A stretch of 30,492 nt of DNA from a virus, in the IMG/VR virus record IMGVR_UViG_3300017786_000080, positions 1 through 30,492 of that record; one strand, 5' to 3'. Shown in pieces: positions 10,028-30,492 of the stretch. Both the position numbers and the translations under genes were made by a program. A model generated the notes under the pieces. That model was not told the origin of the DNA, searched no databases, and saw only the letters and a list, made by a program, of their open reading frames with translations. Each line of letters begins with the position of its first letter. The first letter of the stretch is position 1.

Positions 10028-10420
10028 ATGAGTAAATTATTGATTGGAATTATTATTGCGATGGGTTTATCAGGAATAATGTATTATCAGTTCTCAGTTG
10101 TTCCTATGAAGAATAAACTAGAAGAACAAATCAAAGTTATAGCAGCACAAGACTTAAGAGATCAAGAACAAAAAGCTACTATTGAAGCTATTCAAGGCAA
10201 TCTTCAAAAAACTACTCAAGCTCTTTCTGGGCTACAAGTACAAAATCAACAATACGAAACACAAATGGCAGATTATCTGGATATATTCAGAAGACATAAT
10301 ATTGCTAAACTTGCTAGTGCAAAACCTGGTATGATAGAAACACGGGCCAATGCTCAAACAAAGGAGGTCTTTGATGCGATTGAAGCAGATAGCAAGCGTA
10401 TTAGCTCTCTTAACGATTAG
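10028..10420 (+). CDS. Inner-membrane spanin subunit (i-spanin, Rz-like)
   Basis: A 130 aa protein with an N-terminal membrane anchor (residues ~3-24, LLIGIIIAMGLSGIMYYQFSV) and a long periplasmic coiled coil (~30-95, rich in Gln/Glu/Lys). This is the layout of Rz-type i-spanins, which bridge the periplasm and fuse inner and outer membranes in the last step of lysis. The assignment rests on architecture plus the partner lipoprotein gene embedded at its 3' end in another frame, the hallmark of spanin pairs. Confidence 0.7.
   Translation: MSKLLIGIIIAMGLSGIMYYQFSVVPMKNKLEEQIKVIAAQDLRDQEQKATIEAIQGNLQKTTQALSGLQVQNQQYETQMADYLDIFRRHNIAKLASAKPGMIETRANAQTKEVFDAIEADSKRISSLND
10361..10368 (+). promoter_or_regulatory. 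Strong Shine-Dalgarno for o-spanin start
   Basis: AAGGAGGT, close to a full anti-16S complement, lies five bases before ATG 10374. It fixes the start of the lipoprotein gene inside the i-spanin coding sequence and is stronger than most ribosome binding sites here. Confidence 0.8.
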
Positions 10421-10868
10421 TGGGTGTAGTCTATTACAACAACCTCCTAGAGAAGTTGAAATAATAACTAAACCTGTAAATATAGATATCGTTCAGCCGG
10501 TGATGCCAAGAGCAATAGATTTAAAAGAACCCAAATGGTATGTTGTTTCTGATGCAGTAATTATTGAAAACTGTTTAAAAAACGCAGAAACTAAAAAGTC
10601 AGATTGTAAACTTGGAAGAGAAGATTTATATCCTGAGGGTTATACGTATCACGATAAGTTTATTGACGATATTAAAAAGAAGCACGGAGGTGATGTTGTC
10701 TTTGTTGCTATGACTGTTGCAGATTATGAGCTAATGTCTTATAATACGCAAGAAATAAAAAGATATATTAATCAGCTCGGTGAGGTGATAGTTTACTATA
10801 GAAACGTGACAATAGGTGATGAAGATGCTGGAGCAGTGGAAATCAAAGTGGAGAAAAAAGATGAGTAG
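10374..10868 (+). CDS. Outer-membrane spanin lipoprotein (o-spanin, Rz1-like)
   Basis: A 164 aa predicted lipoprotein. ATG 10374 follows a near-perfect AAGGAGGT. The signal sequence MRLKQIASVLALLTISGC ends in a lipobox with the lipidated Cys at residue 18, followed by a Pro-containing stretch (QQPPREVEI). It overlaps the i-spanin gene by 47 bases. The mature part is longer than classical Rz1 and ends in a small mixed domain (HGGDVVFVAMTVADYELMSY..INQLGEVIVYYRNV), so it may do more than bridge membranes. It overlaps the lipase start. Confidence 0.7.
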   Translation: MRLKQIASVLALLTISGCSLLQQPPREVEIITKPVNIDIVQPVMPRAIDLKEPKWYVVSDAVIIENCLKNAETKKSDCKLGREDLYPEGYTYHDKFIDDIKKKHGGDVVFVAMTVADYELMSYNTQEIKRYINQLGEVIVYYRNVTIGDEDAGAVEIKVEKKDE

Positions 10869-23412: not shown

Positions 23413-23420
23413 TATAAATA
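23413..23420 (+). promoter_or_regulatory. T4-type late promoter (TATAAATA)
   Basis: An exact TATAAATA in the intergenic gap, 20 bases before ATG 23440 and its AAAGGAG site. It heads the tail, lysozyme and curli-like block, for which no other promoter is visible. Confidence 0.7.
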
Positions 23421-25174: not shown

Positions 25175-25615
25175 ATGAATATTGAACAATTAAGAGAACA
25201 ATTAACAATCGATGAAGGTAAAGTAAATGAAATTTATAAAGACCATTTGGGCTATCCAACTTTCGGAATTGGCCATTTGGTCCTCGAATCAGATCCAGAG
25301 TATGGACAAGATGTGGGAACCCCAGTATCAGAAGAACGTACAATTGAATGCTTCGATAAAGACGTACAATCTGTCCTCTCTGACTGTAAAAAACTACATG
25401 AAGGATGGGATGATTACCCTGAAGAAGTAAGACAAGTTGTTGCTAATATGATGTTTAATATGGGACTTACGCGCTTAAGTAAATTTAGAAAGCACAATGC
25501 AGCGCTGCAACGTGGTGATTGGAAAGGAGCTGCTGTAGAAGGCAGAGATTCAAGATGGCACAAGCAAGTAACGAACAGAGCAGAAAGACTTATGGTAAGG
25601 TTAGAGGAACTTTAA
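25175..25615 (+). CDS. e: T4-type lysozyme (endolysin)
   Basis: A 146 aa muramidase of the T4 gp e family, which cleaves the NAM-NAG bond of peptidoglycan. Catalytic residues align with T4 E11, D20 and T26 as E14 (DEG), D23 (YKDHLGY) and T29 (PTFGIGHL). The C-terminal pattern SRWHKQVTNRAERL also matches. Slightly shorter than T4 (164 aa). TTTAGGAG upstream. No signal sequence, so a holin is required for export. Confidence 0.93.
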   Translation: MNIEQLREQLTIDEGKVNEIYKDHLGYPTFGIGHLVLESDPEYGQDVGTPVSEERTIECFDKDVQSVLSDCKKLHEGWDDYPEEVRQVVANMMFNMGLTRLSKFRKHNAALQRGDWKGAAVEGRDSRWHKQVTNRAERLMVRLEEL

Positions 25616-25758: not shown

Positions 25759-26004
25759 ATGAAAATTAAGTTACAAGGTAGTCAATCTGACTTAACTGCA
25801 GCTTCAACAGTAGGTCGAGCTGGTCTTGTTAGAGTGTATAATTCTACAGCTGGCGATTTGCTTTTGACGCAAAAAGATGGTTCAGACGTTGTTGGAACCA
25901 TGACTGTAAAGTCTAAAGACGTTGAATTTGTCAGTAAATTACCTGCGCAAACTTTAGAAGGTGGTGTTGGACTTAAAGTTGTAAGTGTAGCATATTTTAA
26001 TTAA
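25759..26004 (+). CDS. Small virion structural protein
   Basis: An 81 aa beta-rich protein (MKIKLQGSQSDLTAASTVGR, GLVRVYNSTAGDLLLTQKDG, ETLEGG-like TLEGGVGLKVVSVAYF). I recall this small family (LxxTxS..AS.V, LTQK) in marine T4-like phages as a head or tail decoration-type protein. AGGAG precedes the ATG. TAATG-coupled to the next gene. Confidence 0.6.
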   Translation: MKIKLQGSQSDLTAASTVGRAGLVRVYNSTAGDLLLTQKDGSDVVGTMTVKSKDVEFVSKLPAQTLEGGVGLKVVSVAYFN

Positions 26005-26300
26005 TGCCCGATATATTTGCTTTAATATCTGATGTAGGCCTTCCCATTGCTGGTGCATTAGCCAGTGGTGCGTTTGTTTTTATTATTATTAAGCAAATAT
26101 TATCTGGTGTTTTAGATCAGATCAATACTCTTAATATATTTACTAAGAGTTTAGAAAATAGAGTGCGCACAATGAATAACGAGATCATAAAGATTGATAT
26201 GCTAGTTTCAAGCGCTCTTGAATTGACTCCTCCTATAGATAGAATAGCCAGAGCTGAAAATTTTATTGAAGACGGTAATATCGACGTCAGACGAGATTAG
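26004..26300 (+). CDS. N-terminal membrane helix plus coiled coil
   Basis: A 98 aa protein: hydrophobic helix at about residues 12-32 (VGLPIAGALASGAFVFIIIK), then a charged amphipathic helix (INTLNIFTKSLENRVRTMNN) and an acidic tail. The layout resembles small holin-like proteins and resembles the next gene. Holin, or a membrane partner of the curli-like system, are both possible; no proof of either. Confidence 0.55.
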   Translation: MPDIFALISDVGLPIAGALASGAFVFIIIKQILSGVLDQINTLNIFTKSLENRVRTMNNEIIKIDMLVSSALELTPPIDRIARAENFIEDGNIDVRRD

Positions 26301-26302
26301 CC

Positions 26303-26587
26303 ATGGATGCGTTAAATCCGGCTGTTTTAATATCCGAATATGGATTTACTACTGTTGCTATTGTCGGCCTTGGCTATTTCGTATTTTTTGTATGGAAGTT
26401 TATTAATAAAGAATTAGATCCAAAGATCGAAGAGATGCACATGGGTCTAATAAAATTAATTGATCAGGTAAGAATGCTTGATCAGGATATGATAAGATTA
26501 CAAGAAAAAATAAAAGTTGTTTTAGAGTATAGAGAAAGACAAAAATATTTGAGTGAAAATAAAAATGAAGATGAAAATAAAAGTTGA
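26303..26587 (+). CDS. N-terminal membrane helix plus coiled coil
   Basis: A 94 aa protein starting MDALNPAVLISEYGFTTVAI, with one membrane helix (~14-32, TTVAIVGLGYFVFFVWKFI) and a long heptad helix (GLIKLIDQVRMLDQDMIRLQ). I recall a similar small membrane protein in T4-like cyanophages. Same plan as the gene before it, so the two may form a pair. Overlaps the CsgF-like gene by 23 bases. Confidence 0.6.
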   Translation: MDALNPAVLISEYGFTTVAIVGLGYFVFFVWKFINKELDPKIEEMHMGLIKLIDQVRMLDQDMIRLQEKIKVVLEYRERQKYLSENKNEDENKS

Positions 26588-27068
26588 AGATATAATATTA
26601 ACAGCAATGTTTTGCTTAGTGATAACTAATCCAGTTACTGCTGATGAAATTAAATTTGGATTTAAAAATCCATCTTTTAGTGGTATTGGTACTGGTAATC
26701 ATTATCTTACTATTGATAACATAGAACATTCAAGAAAAAAAGCTATTGAAGATTCATTAGAAGCTGCACGAAAGGCTGCAGAACGAGAAGCAGATAATAC
26801 TACAATGGCTAAGTTTATTCGTAACTTAGAAAGCAGAATATATGCTCAAATGTCTAAACAGCTTGTCGAATCAATGTTTAGTAATGATGGATCTGTTAGA
26901 TATGGTTCTTTTACTCTAGAGGGTAATGTTGTTACATATGAAGTTATAATAAACGCTGATGGTTCAGAAGTAATTAGAATGACAATCGTAGATTCTGAAG
27001 GATCAGAAACTGTTATTGAAATCCCAGTTGGAACTGGTAACTTTAGTCAGGATTCTGATGGTGGGTAA
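26565..27068 (+). CDS. csgF: CsgF-like curli assembly protein
   Basis: A 167 aa secreted protein (start ATG 26565 or 26571; a GTG at 26553 is less likely). A signal peptide (about 27 residues, IILTAMFCLVITNPVTA) ends before DEIKFGFKNPSFSG, which matches the CsgF N-terminus (FRNPNFGG) that plugs into the CsgG pore. A helical middle (RKKAIEDSLEAARKAAEREA) and beta-rich end follow, as in CsgF. CsgF couples curlin export to nucleation at the cell surface. Overlaps csgG by 11 bases, suggesting coupled translation. Slightly longer than E. coli CsgF (138 aa). Confidence 0.85.
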   Translation: MKMKIKVEDIILTAMFCLVITNPVTADEIKFGFKNPSFSGIGTGNHYLTIDNIEHSRKKAIEDSLEAARKAAEREADNTTMAKFIRNLESRIYAQMSKQLVESMFSNDGSVRYGSFTLEGNVVTYEVIINADGSEVIRMTIVDSEGSETVIEIPVGTGNFSQDSDGG

Positions 27069-28026
27069 GTATATATTAGTATTGCTGCTACTTAGTGGTT
27101 GCTCTTCTGTTCCAAAATGGAGTAATAACCCACAAGATTGTAATGATCTTGCTGGTAAATACGATGAAGGTTTTAATAGGCATGCGCAAATGGGTATACA
27201 AAAGGCTATGTCCAGAAAGTATATATGCGTTGATGCTCCAGAAGCAGTAAAGCTTCCGGCGTTTGTGGATCTTCTTAATTTACCAGCAGCAAAAACGCAA
27301 CCTGTAGTTGCAGTATATGGATTTAAAGATTTAACAGGCCAAAGAAAATCAGTAGATAATATAGCATCGTTTTCTACTGCAGTTACCCAAGGCGGTACTG
27401 AAATGTTAATAGATGCTCTCAAAACAGCAGGTGGAGGAACCTGGTTTAGAGTAGTAGAAAGACAAGGAATAGACAATCTTGTACGAGAAAGACAAATAGT
27501 AAGATCTACTCGTCAAGATGTAGCTAAAGCTAATGGGACGGAACCCACAGGTGTAGGCCCACTCTTATTTGCAGGAATGATTATTGAGGGTGGTATAATA
27601 GGTTATGATACTAATACAGAAACCGGTGGACGAGGAGCAAGAACTCTTGGCGTAGGTTTTAGTAGAATGTATCGTAAAGATGTTGTTACAGTATCTGTGA
27701 GAGCAGTTTCTGTATTAACGGGAGAAGTTTTGTTAAACGTCCAGGCTAAGAAATCGGTACTTTCTTACGGCTCTTCAGGCGACGTGTTTAGGTTCTATGA
27801 ACAAGGCACACAACTTATTGAGTATGAGGACGGAGTGGGTAATAATGAGTCAGTGACATACGCGGTACGAGCGGCTATTGAAGCTGCAGTACTTGAACTA
27901 ATATACCAGGGCCACGACCGTAAATTCTGGGATTTAACTGAGGGCCATAGACATCCCCATCAAGTTGATGGGAAAAACGAAAGGCACTCAATAAAAGAGG
28001 AAAACAAAAATGAAAAAACTAATTAG
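27058..28026 (+). CDS. csgG: CsgG-like outer-membrane curli secretion channel
   Basis: A 322 aa lipoprotein pore (start ATG 27058, within csgF). Signal MVGKYILVLLLLSGC has the lipidated Cys at residue 15. The body aligns well with CsgG: VAVYGFKDLTGQRK, ASFSTAV, WFRVVERQGIDNL, a GGIIGYDTN segment, GGRGARTLGVGFS, VSVLTGEVLLNVQAKKSVLS, VFRFYEQG, DRKFWDL. CsgG forms a nonameric channel that exports curlins. An extra ~40 residues precede the core. At the constriction loop, the E. coli Tyr/Asn/Phe residues are D/S/F here by alignment. It overlaps the curlin-like gene by 17 bases. Confidence 0.93.
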   Translation: MVGKYILVLLLLSGCSSVPKWSNNPQDCNDLAGKYDEGFNRHAQMGIQKAMSRKYICVDAPEAVKLPAFVDLLNLPAAKTQPVVAVYGFKDLTGQRKSVDNIASFSTAVTQGGTEMLIDALKTAGGGTWFRVVERQGIDNLVRERQIVRSTRQDVAKANGTEPTGVGPLLFAGMIIEGGIIGYDTNTETGGRGARTLGVGFSRMYRKDVVTVSVRAVSVLTGEVLLNVQAKKSVLSYGSSGDVFRFYEQGTQLIEYEDGVGNNESVTYAVRAAIEAAVLELIYQGHDRKFWDLTEGHRHPHQVDGKNERHSIKEENKNEKTN

Positions 28027-28747
28027 TATAGCGGGATTGCTATTCTTGGTTACATCAGGTTTGGTTTTTGCGGATGATGACAACGAAATAATGATAGAAC
28101 AAAGTGGTGACACTTTAACACTATATATTGATCAAGTTGGATATGGTAATAAGATCGGTTTAGATGATTTTTCTGGATCCGGTTCGGATATGACCATTGA
28201 AGGATCTAATTTAACTTTCGACATTGATATGATAGGTAATCAGAACTTAATTTATGGTCCTATAGACATGGACTCATCTTCTTTGGTGTTCTCGTTAACG
28301 GGAGACTCAAATAAGGTGGACTGGAATATCGGTTATATCGGTAGTTCAGACGATTCTGATTATAACTTTAGTATCACTGGCGACAGCAATGAATTAAATA
28401 TTGATCAAGGATATGTTTATAGCGCTGAAAGATTAGACGCTGATCTAACTTTAGTTGGCGGTTATAATATATTTGATATTGATTTTGAAGCTGATGATTC
28501 GGTTTGGACTTTTGATATTACTGGAGACAGTAATGATATTAATACATTACAAAGCGACGGAGCTCAAGAATTAATATTTGACTTTGTTGGTGATTCTGGT
28601 GATATTGATATTAATCAAATTAGTGGTACATGCGCAACTGGAGCAGGTGTTGCATGTTCATCCCCAAATGCCGTAATAAATCTAGATATAACTTCTGATA
28701 ATGCTACGATTCAAATTAATCAAAAAGACTCGCCTGGGGATTCTTAA
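28010..28747 (+). CDS. Curlin-like secreted repeat protein (CsgA/CsgB type)
   Basis: A 245 aa protein with a signal peptide (MKKLISIAGLLFLVTSGLVFA) and about eight imperfect repeats around G-x-x-N-x(5)-Q, for example GYGNKIGL, GDSNELNIDQ, GDSNDINTLQ, GDSGDIDINQ and SDNATIQINQ. Curlin repeats (N and Q ladders) form the beta-solenoid of amyloid fibres. Asp is unusually abundant and some repeats lack the final Gln. AAAGAGGAAAAC precedes ATG 28010. A fibre or surface coat is inferred. The next gene overlaps its last 47 bases. Confidence 0.75.
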   Translation: MKKLISIAGLLFLVTSGLVFADDDNEIMIEQSGDTLTLYIDQVGYGNKIGLDDFSGSGSDMTIEGSNLTFDIDMIGNQNLIYGPIDMDSSSLVFSLTGDSNKVDWNIGYIGSSDDSDYNFSITGDSNELNIDQGYVYSAERLDADLTLVGGYNIFDIDFEADDSVWTFDITGDSNDINTLQSDGAQELIFDFVGDSGDIDINQISGTCATGAGVACSSPNAVINLDITSDNATIQINQKDSPGDS

Positions 28748-29813
28748 TTTACTATTCATTAGTGGAATCTCATTTGCAGATTCCATTGGTGACATAGTAG
28801 AATCAACTGGCATAAGTCAGATAGTACGCAATAACGAAGAAATAGTTTTATCTGGAAAAGTAATTCCAGTAGAACTAAATGATGAAGCAAAAACTGGTAA
28901 TGGAAGAATGCTTATTGAGTTTTTAGATAAAGCTCAACTATCTTTAAAAGAGCATTCTGAAGTACTGATAGATGAAATATATTATGACCCCGATCCTTCG
29001 CTCTCAAAGATGAGTATGAAGTTTACGATGGGAACTGCTAGGTTTGCTAGTGGTAGATTAGGCTTAGTAAATAAAGCTAATATTGATATCTCAACTCCTA
29101 CAGCATCTATTGCTGTTAGGGGGACAGATTTTACAACAACAGTTGACGAATTAGGTAGAAGTTTAATTATACTTTTACCAGACGCAAATGGTGATCCATC
29201 GGGCGAAATTATAGTATCTAATGAAGGTGGCGTAGTTACATTAAATGAAGCTTATGCTGCAACAATGGTATCATCATTAGATTCATCACCAACACAATCA
29301 ATTAAAGTAAATGGTATTACACCATCATTAATTGACAACATGTTTATTGTATCACCTCCTGAAGAAGTAAAGGAGAAGATAAGAGAAGAAATGGCCGATG
29401 ACACAAATGAAGATCAAGGCCTATTAGATATAGATTTTTTAGAGTTTACTGAATTAGAAGAAGACGAGTTAGAAGAAGACAGTCTTGATGAATTTAGTGA
29501 ACTTGATATCGACGAACTCGATGTCGAATATTTAGTTGATGTTTTAGATATTATAGATAGTTCTGACTTGTTTGATACCCTAGGTGAATTTGATATCAAA
29601 GGTGCAGCAAGAGGATTTAACGACCAGTCACAGTATAATGTATATTTGGAAGATAGCAATTTAGTATTATATAGGAACGTGAATGGCAAGATAAGAATAA
29701 AAATAGGAGCTGGTGGTAATTTTACTCTTAACACTATAACGCCAACCTGGGACGGCATAATTACTGGGAATGAAGGTGAAGATATTCTCATATATATAAA
29801 TCAGGTGAATTGA
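28701..29813 (+). CDS. Secreted FecR-domain protein with acidic tail
   Basis: A 370 aa protein. The start (ATG 28701) lies in the curlin-like gene and gives a signal peptide (RLGILNLLFISGISFA). Residues ~30-200 fit a FecR domain (SIGDIVESTGISQIVRNNEE, TGNGRMLIEFLDKAQLSLKE, ANIDISTPTASIAVRGTDFT). No sigma factor or transmembrane signaller accompanies it, so it is likely a surface/periplasmic FecR-fold protein rather than an iron regulator. Residues ~225-300 are extremely acidic (FTELEEDELEEDSLDEF), followed by a beta-rich C-terminus (NVYLEDSNLVLYRNVNGK). Probably a partner or anchor in the curli-like operon. Confidence 0.75.
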   Translation: MLRFKLIKKTRLGILNLLFISGISFADSIGDIVESTGISQIVRNNEEIVLSGKVIPVELNDEAKTGNGRMLIEFLDKAQLSLKEHSEVLIDEIYYDPDPSLSKMSMKFTMGTARFASGRLGLVNKANIDISTPTASIAVRGTDFTTTVDELGRSLIILLPDANGDPSGEIIVSNEGGVVTLNEAYAATMVSSLDSSPTQSIKVNGITPSLIDNMFIVSPPEEVKEKIREEMADDTNEDQGLLDIDFLEFTELEEDELEEDSLDEFSELDIDELDVEYLVDVLDIIDSSDLFDTLGEFDIKGAARGFNDQSQYNVYLEDSNLVLYRNVNGKIRIKIGAGGNFTLNTITPTWDGIITGNEGEDILIYINQVN

Positions 29814-29814
29814 T

Positions 29815-30492
29815 ATGTTAGAAAAAATAGAAGAATATTCAATAAAAGCATTAATATTATTTGGCACAATAATGTGGCCTATTATAATTTTAGTAGCAAT
29901 TTTTGGTTTAATATCGGATGTAATAGCTGATGATAATGTTATATCATTAGAACAGTCAGGTGATAACCTTGCATTAGGCGTAGATCAGATAGGTTATAAT
30001 AACGAAATTGTTATGTTAGATAATCAATCATACATAAATTCAACGAATTTAAATATGTATTTAGTACAGGTCAATGATTCTTCAGGACAAAATAAAATTG
30101 TATTTGACGAAGTAAGTGGTTCAGGTAACCAAATAAAACTGGCACAAGGCGTTGCATGGAATACTCTTGATTCTGATACGGATTTAACTTGGTGGTCAGA
30201 CAGTTATGAAGGTGGCGGGCATGAAATAGATATTACGCTATATGGTGATAATAATGATATGGCAGTTCAGCAAACAAATCAAGGGTCTACTACAGGTCAT
30301 AGTTTCGATTTACATTTAGATGGAGATGGTAATAAGGTTCAAGTCAAACAACAAAGCGATGGTGATAAGAATTTAAACTTAACAATATATAATGATTACA
30401 ATGATGTGTTTGTTCGCCAAAAAGGTAATAACGCAAGTCATAATGCTGATGTAACACTTGATGGTTTATATGGAACAAACTTAACATTAAAA
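29815..30492 (+). CDS. Second curlin-like repeat protein, truncated by window edge
   Basis: At least 226 aa, no stop before the right edge. An N-terminal hydrophobic segment (residues ~11-33, LILFGTIMWPIIILVAIFGL) serves as membrane anchor or long signal sequence, then VIADDNVISLEQSGDNLALG begins a set of at least five curlin-like repeats (GYNNEIVM, GSGNQIKLAQ, GDNNDMAVQQ, GDGNKVQVKQ, NDYNDVFVRQ). It resembles the first curlin-like gene in its opening (EQSGD..LDQ.GY.N). ATG 29815 overlaps TGA 29811-29813 closely. Confidence 0.75.
   Translation, partial: MLEKIEEYSIKALILFGTIMWPIIILVAIFGLISDVIADDNVISLEQSGDNLALGVDQIGYNNEIVMLDNQSYINSTNLNMYLVQVNDSSGQNKIVFDEVSGSGNQIKLAQGVAWNTLDSDTDLTWWSDSYEGGGHEIDITLYGDNNDMAVQQTNQGSTTGHSFDLHLDGDGNKVQVKQQSDGDKNLNLTIYNDYNDVFVRQKGNNASHNADVTLDGLYGTNLTLK

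Follow-up and report, generated by a model that had tools for sequence, protein, structure and literature searches.

A curli-type secretion operon with candidate substrates in a T4-like marine phage, most likely expressed late and captured once from bacteria

A curli cassette that includes candidate substrates has already been described in marine phages (Zaragoza-Solas 2020, PMC7029224; Buchholz 2022, PMC9004378; Wittmers 2022, PMC9599517), and the gene order HK-CsgF-CsgG-CsgA/B-FecR-CsgA/B-AC (AC, adenylate cyclase) was reported in podo- and myo-pelagiphages (PMC9599517). SAR11 and its phages rank among the sea's most abundant entities, and the question since 2020 has been why such lean phages keep an eight-gene, ~6-kb surface-fibre operon that is absent from their hosts. 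Here we analyze the copy in IMGVR_UViG_3300017786_000080, a 30.5-kb IMG/VR fragment (30,492 nt, G+C ~34%; hereafter, the window) that derives from a T4-like phage, based on matches to NrdA, NrdB, PhoH and exonuclease. A first-pass annotation of the window had placed CsgF-like, CsgG-like, curlin-like, FecR-like and second curlin-like genes in one run at 26565-30492, and Pfam searches confirmed all five. The co-occurrence of the channel, its CsgF partner and two candidate substrates, also pointed out in that annotation, is likewise supported and was already in print (PMC9599517). These genes, and two more that precede them, are:

26004-26300, + strand: tmA, 98 aa, phrog_18771, with one N-terminal transmembrane (TM) segment and a C-terminal helix ending DVRRD
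26303-26587, + strand: tmB, a 94-aa relative of tmA, phrog_18771, with one N-terminal TM segment
26565-27068, + strand: CsgF-like protein (PF10614, E=1.4e-14), with a signal peptide and then FGFKNPSFSG, the CsgG-binding N-terminus
27058-28026, + strand: CsgG-like outer-membrane lipoprotein channel (PF03783, E=2.2e-52), with lipobox LLSGC
28010-28747, + strand: cur1, curlin-repeat protein 1, candidate substrate (PF07012, E=7.7e-5, above the gathering score)
28701-29813, + strand: exported FecR-domain protein (PF04773, E=8.4e-8), with the C-terminal end ILIYINQVN
29815-30492, + strand, cut by the contig end: cur2, curlin-repeat protein 2, candidate substrate (PF07012, E=1e-3, slightly below the gathering score)

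Neighboring genes overlap by 11 nt (CsgF/CsgG), 17 nt (CsgG/cur1) and 47 nt (cur1/FecR), and FecR and cur2 are separated by 1 nt, which indicates one translationally coupled run. The true unit is larger than 26565-30492, as it begins at 26004 with tmA and tmB and, in relatives, extends to a CHASE2 cyclase that would lie past the end of the contig. We looked for conservation of gene order in related phages, and the same eight-gene order, tmA-tmB-CsgF-CsgG-cur1-FecR-cur2-AC, was unvaried throughout 83 viral loci, HTVC008M and Melnitz among them; genes absent from individual loci are nearly all at contig ends, the exception being the cyclase of L052. Pairwise dN/dS (omega) of the cassette genes mostly falls at ~0.03-0.25, reaching ~0.3 in a few closely related pairs, and purifying selection is strong on every one of them, tmA and tmB being among the most constrained. 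Because the order recurs in 83 viral loci and all of the genes are under purifying selection, the cassette is not a chance assembly.

We consider it probable that the cassette encodes a late type VIII secretion system (T8SS) with its own substrates and a sensing branch, giving the infected cell a curlin surface layer. On this reading, a T4-like marine phage would have acquired and retained a type VIII (curli) secretion operon from a Caulobacterales-type alphaproteobacterium, and the block contains the greater part of it. CsgG would be inserted in the host outer membrane late in infection as a lipoprotein channel, its mouth lined by the N-terminus of CsgF, and cur1 and cur2 would cross the inner membrane by Sec, pass through CsgG unfolded, and stack on the infected cell as curlin-type fibres or a coat. 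The exported FecR protein and the CHASE2-adenylate cyclase would constitute an envelope-sensing branch, and tmA and tmB would be inner-membrane proteins added by the phage.

The CsgG match spans the whole core, as first claimed (PF03783 profile positions 4-207 of 210), and the protein matches CsgG in the PDB with E=9e-66. Its start is better placed at ATG 27058, followed by the lipoprotein signal MVGKYILVLLLLSGC, than at TTG 27016, and the lipobox Cys is invariant in the aligned set. Also invariant is W291, the equivalent of E. coli Trp237, which belongs to the CsgA-binding (recognition) pocket (PMC6957492). In the constriction ring, the equivalent of Phe56 is present in 12 of 14 sequences and is Leu in HTVC008M and Melnitz. 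The best PDB matches of the CsgF-like protein, though weak (E about 0.11), are to CsgF itself (6l7a/6lqh); the equivalents of E. coli CsgF Phe26 and Phe31 are invariant in the alignment (11/11 sequences), and that of Phe24 is present in the window (FGFKNPSF). In E. coli these three residues bind CsgG, and their mutation disrupts binding (PMC6957492, PMC10133297). Phage CsgF contains an extended helix without a counterpart in E. coli CsgF, and the CsgF of bacterial operons has it too. The combination of a CsgG core with a lipoprotein signal, a CsgF with a CsgG-binding N-terminus and curlin-repeat substrates marks the cassette as a predicted T8SS.

In cur1, GxxN motifs form a ladder at residues 44, 76, 98, 124, 150 and 172, six sites as opposed to about one in shuffled sequences (p=5e-4), and GxxN sites in cur2 also exceed those in shuffles (p=0.0015). 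Across 24 cur1 sequences, the invariant columns are N25, I27, Q31, G33, Q42, G44 and N47 together with the G/N pairs 76/79, 98/101, 124/127, 150/153 and on, and these residues correspond to the Q.G..N / GxxN positions of the curlin repeat. The AlphaFold model of cur1 is all-beta, with strands ~11 residues apart (mean pLDDT 79), and its only PDB sequence match is CsgA (8enq; weak, E=0.23). The complete form of cur2 is found in the relative L004 (8800-9570, 256 aa). The second curlin of HTVC008M (L082 10462-11787) has ~200 additional residues ahead of its curlin repeats, which appear to resemble a separate binding domain.

The FecR protein consists of a signal peptide, a FecR domain (residues ~30-190), an acidic low-confidence stretch (234-292) and a C-terminal beta region, as modeled by AlphaFold. 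The signal peptide leads directly into the FecR domain, indicating an exported protein rather than a canonical FecR regulator; an anti-sigma regulator of that type would have a cytoplasmic N-terminal domain and a TM helix before the FecR domain, and Pfam matched the FecR domain only. In Foldseek searches, the model matched PupR (6ovk, E=2.6e-4) and, lower in rank, 5ix9, annotated as the cell-surface anchoring domain of an antifreeze protein, which was also the sole sequence-profile match (weak, E=0.12). Of 54 phage FecR proteins, 53 terminate in [ILV]x[ILV]xQ plus at most three further residues, so that FecR ends in a curlin-like strand. This ending is shared by 40/51 cur2 proteins and occurs within the last 14 residues of 58/59 cur1 proteins, compared with 2/684 other open reading frames (ORFs). 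Homology of the whole C-terminal region with curlin is not supported, the profile comparison being not significant (probability 2-4%). In relatives, the gene after cur2 encodes a CHASE2-class III adenylate cyclase (L004 9650-11494; PF05226, E=4e-40; PF00211, E=1e-19). In a Burkholderia biofilm operon an exported FecR protein is also encoded beside a CHASE2 sensor (PMC5192318), which favors a signaling pair over iron regulation. The cyclase of L107 (4825-6663) seems to be split into two ORFs, and is perhaps broken or misassembled.

The two small genes at the head of the unit are phage-specific and confined to the cassette. Among 50,697 phage records, tmA/tmB occur only in the six that bear the curli cassette, and in viral contigs CsgF or CsgG lies downstream in 78 of 80 tmA loci, the remaining two being cut at the contig edge; this restriction rules out their being general phage genes. 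The charge distribution around the TM segment suggests that tmA is likely oriented N-out/C-in. L049, L052, L061-L065 and L067-L069 have ~800 bp inserted between tmB and CsgF, and in L062 the insert is a radical SAM gene (PF04055, E=9e-13).

The cassette is most likely a late transcript, judging from promoter motifs in related phages. Of 50 distinct stretches upstream of tmA, 32 have a T4-type late-promoter motif close to the gene, against a background of 1.1%; in many relatives the distance is 12-14 nt. The motif precedes lysozyme in 7/26 cases and hardly ever precedes other cassette genes. In HTVC008M, ATAAATA-type motifs are located a few nt before several structural genes, as well as upstream of csgF and of the gene ahead of tmA, and TATAAATA lies upstream of structural genes, as in T4-like late transcription. 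The first-pass annotation saw no promoter inside the block, a fair statement given that sigma-70-like sites (29) are not above the number in shuffles (34.6 +/- 5.9). It also proposed late expression together with lysozyme: lateness is supported by the relatives, but the pairing does not hold in general, with lysozyme upstream in 41/83 loci (some of the rest end short). A late-promoter claim drawn from the window alone would be unsupported, as TATAAATA is no more frequent there than expected by chance, and the case rests on the relatives. The nearest candidate in the window is 2.6 kb upstream of the cassette, at 23413, and is possibly the start of a transcript that includes it. This motif and the lysis genes of the window are:

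23413-23420, + strand: late-promoter-like motif TATAAATA, T4-type, 19 nt before ATG 23440 and similarly placed in close relatives
25175-25615, + strand: phage lysozyme (PF00959, E=1.4e-8), directly upstream of the cassette in the window clade and not a constant neighbor
10350-10868, + strand: Rz-like spanin (phrog_812, E=2.9e-10)

The spanin gene is far from the lysozyme gene, and the lysis genes of the window are therefore unclustered. Rfam and tRNA scans returned nothing.

To place the cassette among cellular relatives, bacterial and archaeal genomes were scanned; hits included phage contigs binned in metagenome-assembled genomes (MAGs), which were recognized by the presence of tmA/tmB and by high identity. 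Three loci have bacterial-looking flanks, one in Hyphomonas sp. TMED17 (L094, on a 705-kb contig) and two in Caulobacteraceae MAGs (L092, L093), with acyl-CoA dehydrogenase, amidohydrolase, TonB-receptor or glycosyltransferase genes nearby. All three have the composition CsgF-CsgG-curlin(s)-FecR-CHASE2 cyclase, without tmA/tmB. Among the 398 genomes sampled from the order and the 385 from the class, the full-length FecR type turned up once each, in the same genome both times, indicating that the bacterial operon is rare; 18 other class-level FecR matches cover mainly the FecR domain. In a CsgG tree built with IQ-TREE under a mixture model, a branch with support of 94/89 sets the 27 phage sequences apart; adjoining them are the three bacterial operons (97/91), and other bacteria come next. 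A quick FastTree run nested the bacterial operons within the phage group, an arrangement that the preferred mixture-model tree did not reproduce. A single capture, with tmA and tmB added afterwards, would be the simplest account and, because the phage group adjoins bacterial operons that have FecR and the cyclase, these two genes most likely came along with the captured operon. Of the 297 genomes sampled in the same order as the Pelagibacter MAG G004, 296 lacked CsgF, and the sole match was a phage contig inside that same MAG, so the cassette is self-standing.

Phage contigs bearing the cassette (L086-L091, L095-L097, L101, L107) are binned in MAGs labeled Rhodobacteraceae, Synechococcus, Bacteroidota and Pelagibacter, and such contigs are a source of false reports of bacterial curli; L103 (Pirellulales) and L108 group with phage-contig sequences in the CsgG tree. 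A 1.5-kb record named as a Salmonella phage (OR851715.1, L084) encodes a CsgG ~38% identical to that of the window, but it is an unverified, unannotated wastewater fragment that may be bacterial DNA, and we ignored it.

Several observations weigh against a curlin-exporting system of single origin. Melnitz-infected cells gave no fibres or clumping (PMC9004378), though Melnitz carries both curlin genes. The curlin repeats are degenerate, with one full QxGxxN unit in cur1, and a Foldseek search of the PDB with the cur1 model gave no significant match. Two of the three constriction residues, Tyr51 and Asn55, are replaced in phage CsgG, which also has a one-residue insertion there, and the branch that makes the phages monophyletic in the CsgG tree falls slightly short of the strict support threshold of the tool. 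CsgE (PF10627) was not found in 10 phage records; however, it is also absent from alphaproteobacterial curli systems (PMC3521004) and is therefore not defining.

In a published alternative (Buchholz 2022), CsgG has been repurposed as a pinholin- or secretin-like pore for lysis and CsgF has drifted into a different role, and the first-pass annotation had similarly listed an exit pore aiding lysis. The position of lysozyme in the window clade, the late promoters of relatives and the one-TM make-up of tmA/tmB, which would suit small holins, are compatible with this idea. In Pfam, tmA/tmB gave no significant match to a holin or other family, and 4 of 19 members matched YvrJ weakly (best E 0.12). 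Against the idea, the contig already has a lysozyme as well as an Rz-like spanin, no lysozyme was found beside the cassette in about half of the loci, the curlins, CsgF and FecR remain under purifying selection, and the parts that recognize substrate are kept. The extended CsgF helix, which had led Buchholz 2022 to suggest divergence of the phage protein, is shared with bacterial operons and so is not a phage divergence. Moreover, the proposal was built on a reported lack of csgA/csgB in Melnitz that is not real, since its GenBank record (L083 8719-11513) annotates two curlin-repeat proteins and FecR beside CsgG, and our analysis likewise finds two curlins. A lysis pore is thus improbable, and we reject it as the main function on the basis of the spanin, the lysozyme and the conserved substrates. 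The two other roles listed in the first-pass annotation, a surface coat that blocks reinfection and fibres that aggregate cells, are not told apart by sequence. Under the "sibling capture" proposal (PMC7029224, PMC9599517), the fibres would mainly hold neighboring cells close to the one that is lysing, and coating of the infected cell would not be their chief use. An advantage at the moment when progeny are released would fit the late timing; Melnitz cultures did not clump (PMC9004378), and the sequence is equally compatible with a coat preventing progeny or competitors from re-adsorbing. We grant sibling capture only a minor share of our confidence.

Other alternatives concern individual components of the proposed secretion system. 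FecR could be a fibre anchor and not a regulator, with its FecR domain in the periplasm, its acidic linker running through CsgG and its curlin-like C-terminal strand joining the fibre outside. Its architecture fits such a role, as do the terminal motif shared with the curlins and the recovery of the 5ix9 anchoring domain by both profile and structure searches; nevertheless, that sequence match is weak, the C-terminal region is not significantly curlin-like in profile comparisons, and no C-terminus-first export via CsgG is known, making the anchor unlikely. An extension of this idea, to which we assign a similarly low standing, is a fibre-and-feedback device in which an anchored FecR with a curlin-like tail would signal to the CHASE2 cyclase that fibres are assembling at CsgG, and tmA/tmB, as a new kind of T8SS component, would control export or link it to late infection. 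As for tmA and tmB themselves, the published "HK, sometimes two" (PMC9599517) stands immediately before CsgF, the position of tmA and tmB, and we infer that they seem to be the same genes. If so, they would be sensor histidine kinases regulating the cassette, but the proteins have lengths of 92-115 aa, histidine is entirely missing from 39 of 47 distinct tmA sequences, and a Pfam search of tmA/tmB found no kinase domain even at E=5. The HisKA domain was not found in 10 phage records by a search that was positive in 12/14 control genomes. As the hallmarks of such a kinase, a HisKA domain with its phospho-accepting His and an ATPase domain, are missing, we reject kinase identity, which is scarcely credible on these data.

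Our analysis adds to the published cassette a bacterial version with FecR and cyclase, the phage-specific nature of tmA/tmB, and the placement of late promoters, and the relatives show the full set of parts, the probable late timing and the probable single bacterial origin more clearly than before. The question of why these phages keep the operon is thereby narrowed: the whole operon, including its sensor branch, was most likely captured once and is most likely expressed late. This anatomy provides grounds for specific deletions and assays in cultured HTVC008M and Melnitz.

Compared with known systems, the phage cassette shares with E. coli csgBAC-csgDEFG the CsgG channel, the CsgF N-terminal plug and the curlin repeats, but it differs in the degeneracy of its repeats, the replaced Tyr51 and Asn55, the added FecR protein and CHASE2 cyclase, and its gene content (CsgE not found, no CsgC or CsgD seen). 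The Burkholderia "BiofilmReg" operon (PMC5192318), which controls biofilm, likewise places an exported FecR-domain protein next to a CHASE2 sensor; there, the FecR protein includes a fused LysM domain, the CHASE2 sensor is a histidine kinase, and no Csg genes are named. The closest match is the pelagiphage T8SS/Curli module of HTVC008M, with the same genes in the same order in the same kind of T4-like phage. The CsgG of the window is ~51% identical to that of HTVC008M over 66% of its length, and the window is a partial member of this module. Relative to the module as published, tmA/tmB are phage-specific non-kinases and the cyclase is of the CHASE2 type. For podoviral context, the annotation of positions 1-45000 (of 59769) in the record MW574966 of Wittmers et al. 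lists no curli genes. The "curli pore" of the OM43 phage Melnitz (PMC9004378) has the same eight-gene order. The Hyphomonas and Caulobacteraceae operons keep the order from CsgF to cyclase on chromosomes and without tmA/tmB, with two adjacent curlins before FecR in L092 and L093 and one long curlin in L094. Thus, whereas FecR and the cyclase were stated not to lie within bacterial T8SS operons (PMC9599517), these three loci show that they do.

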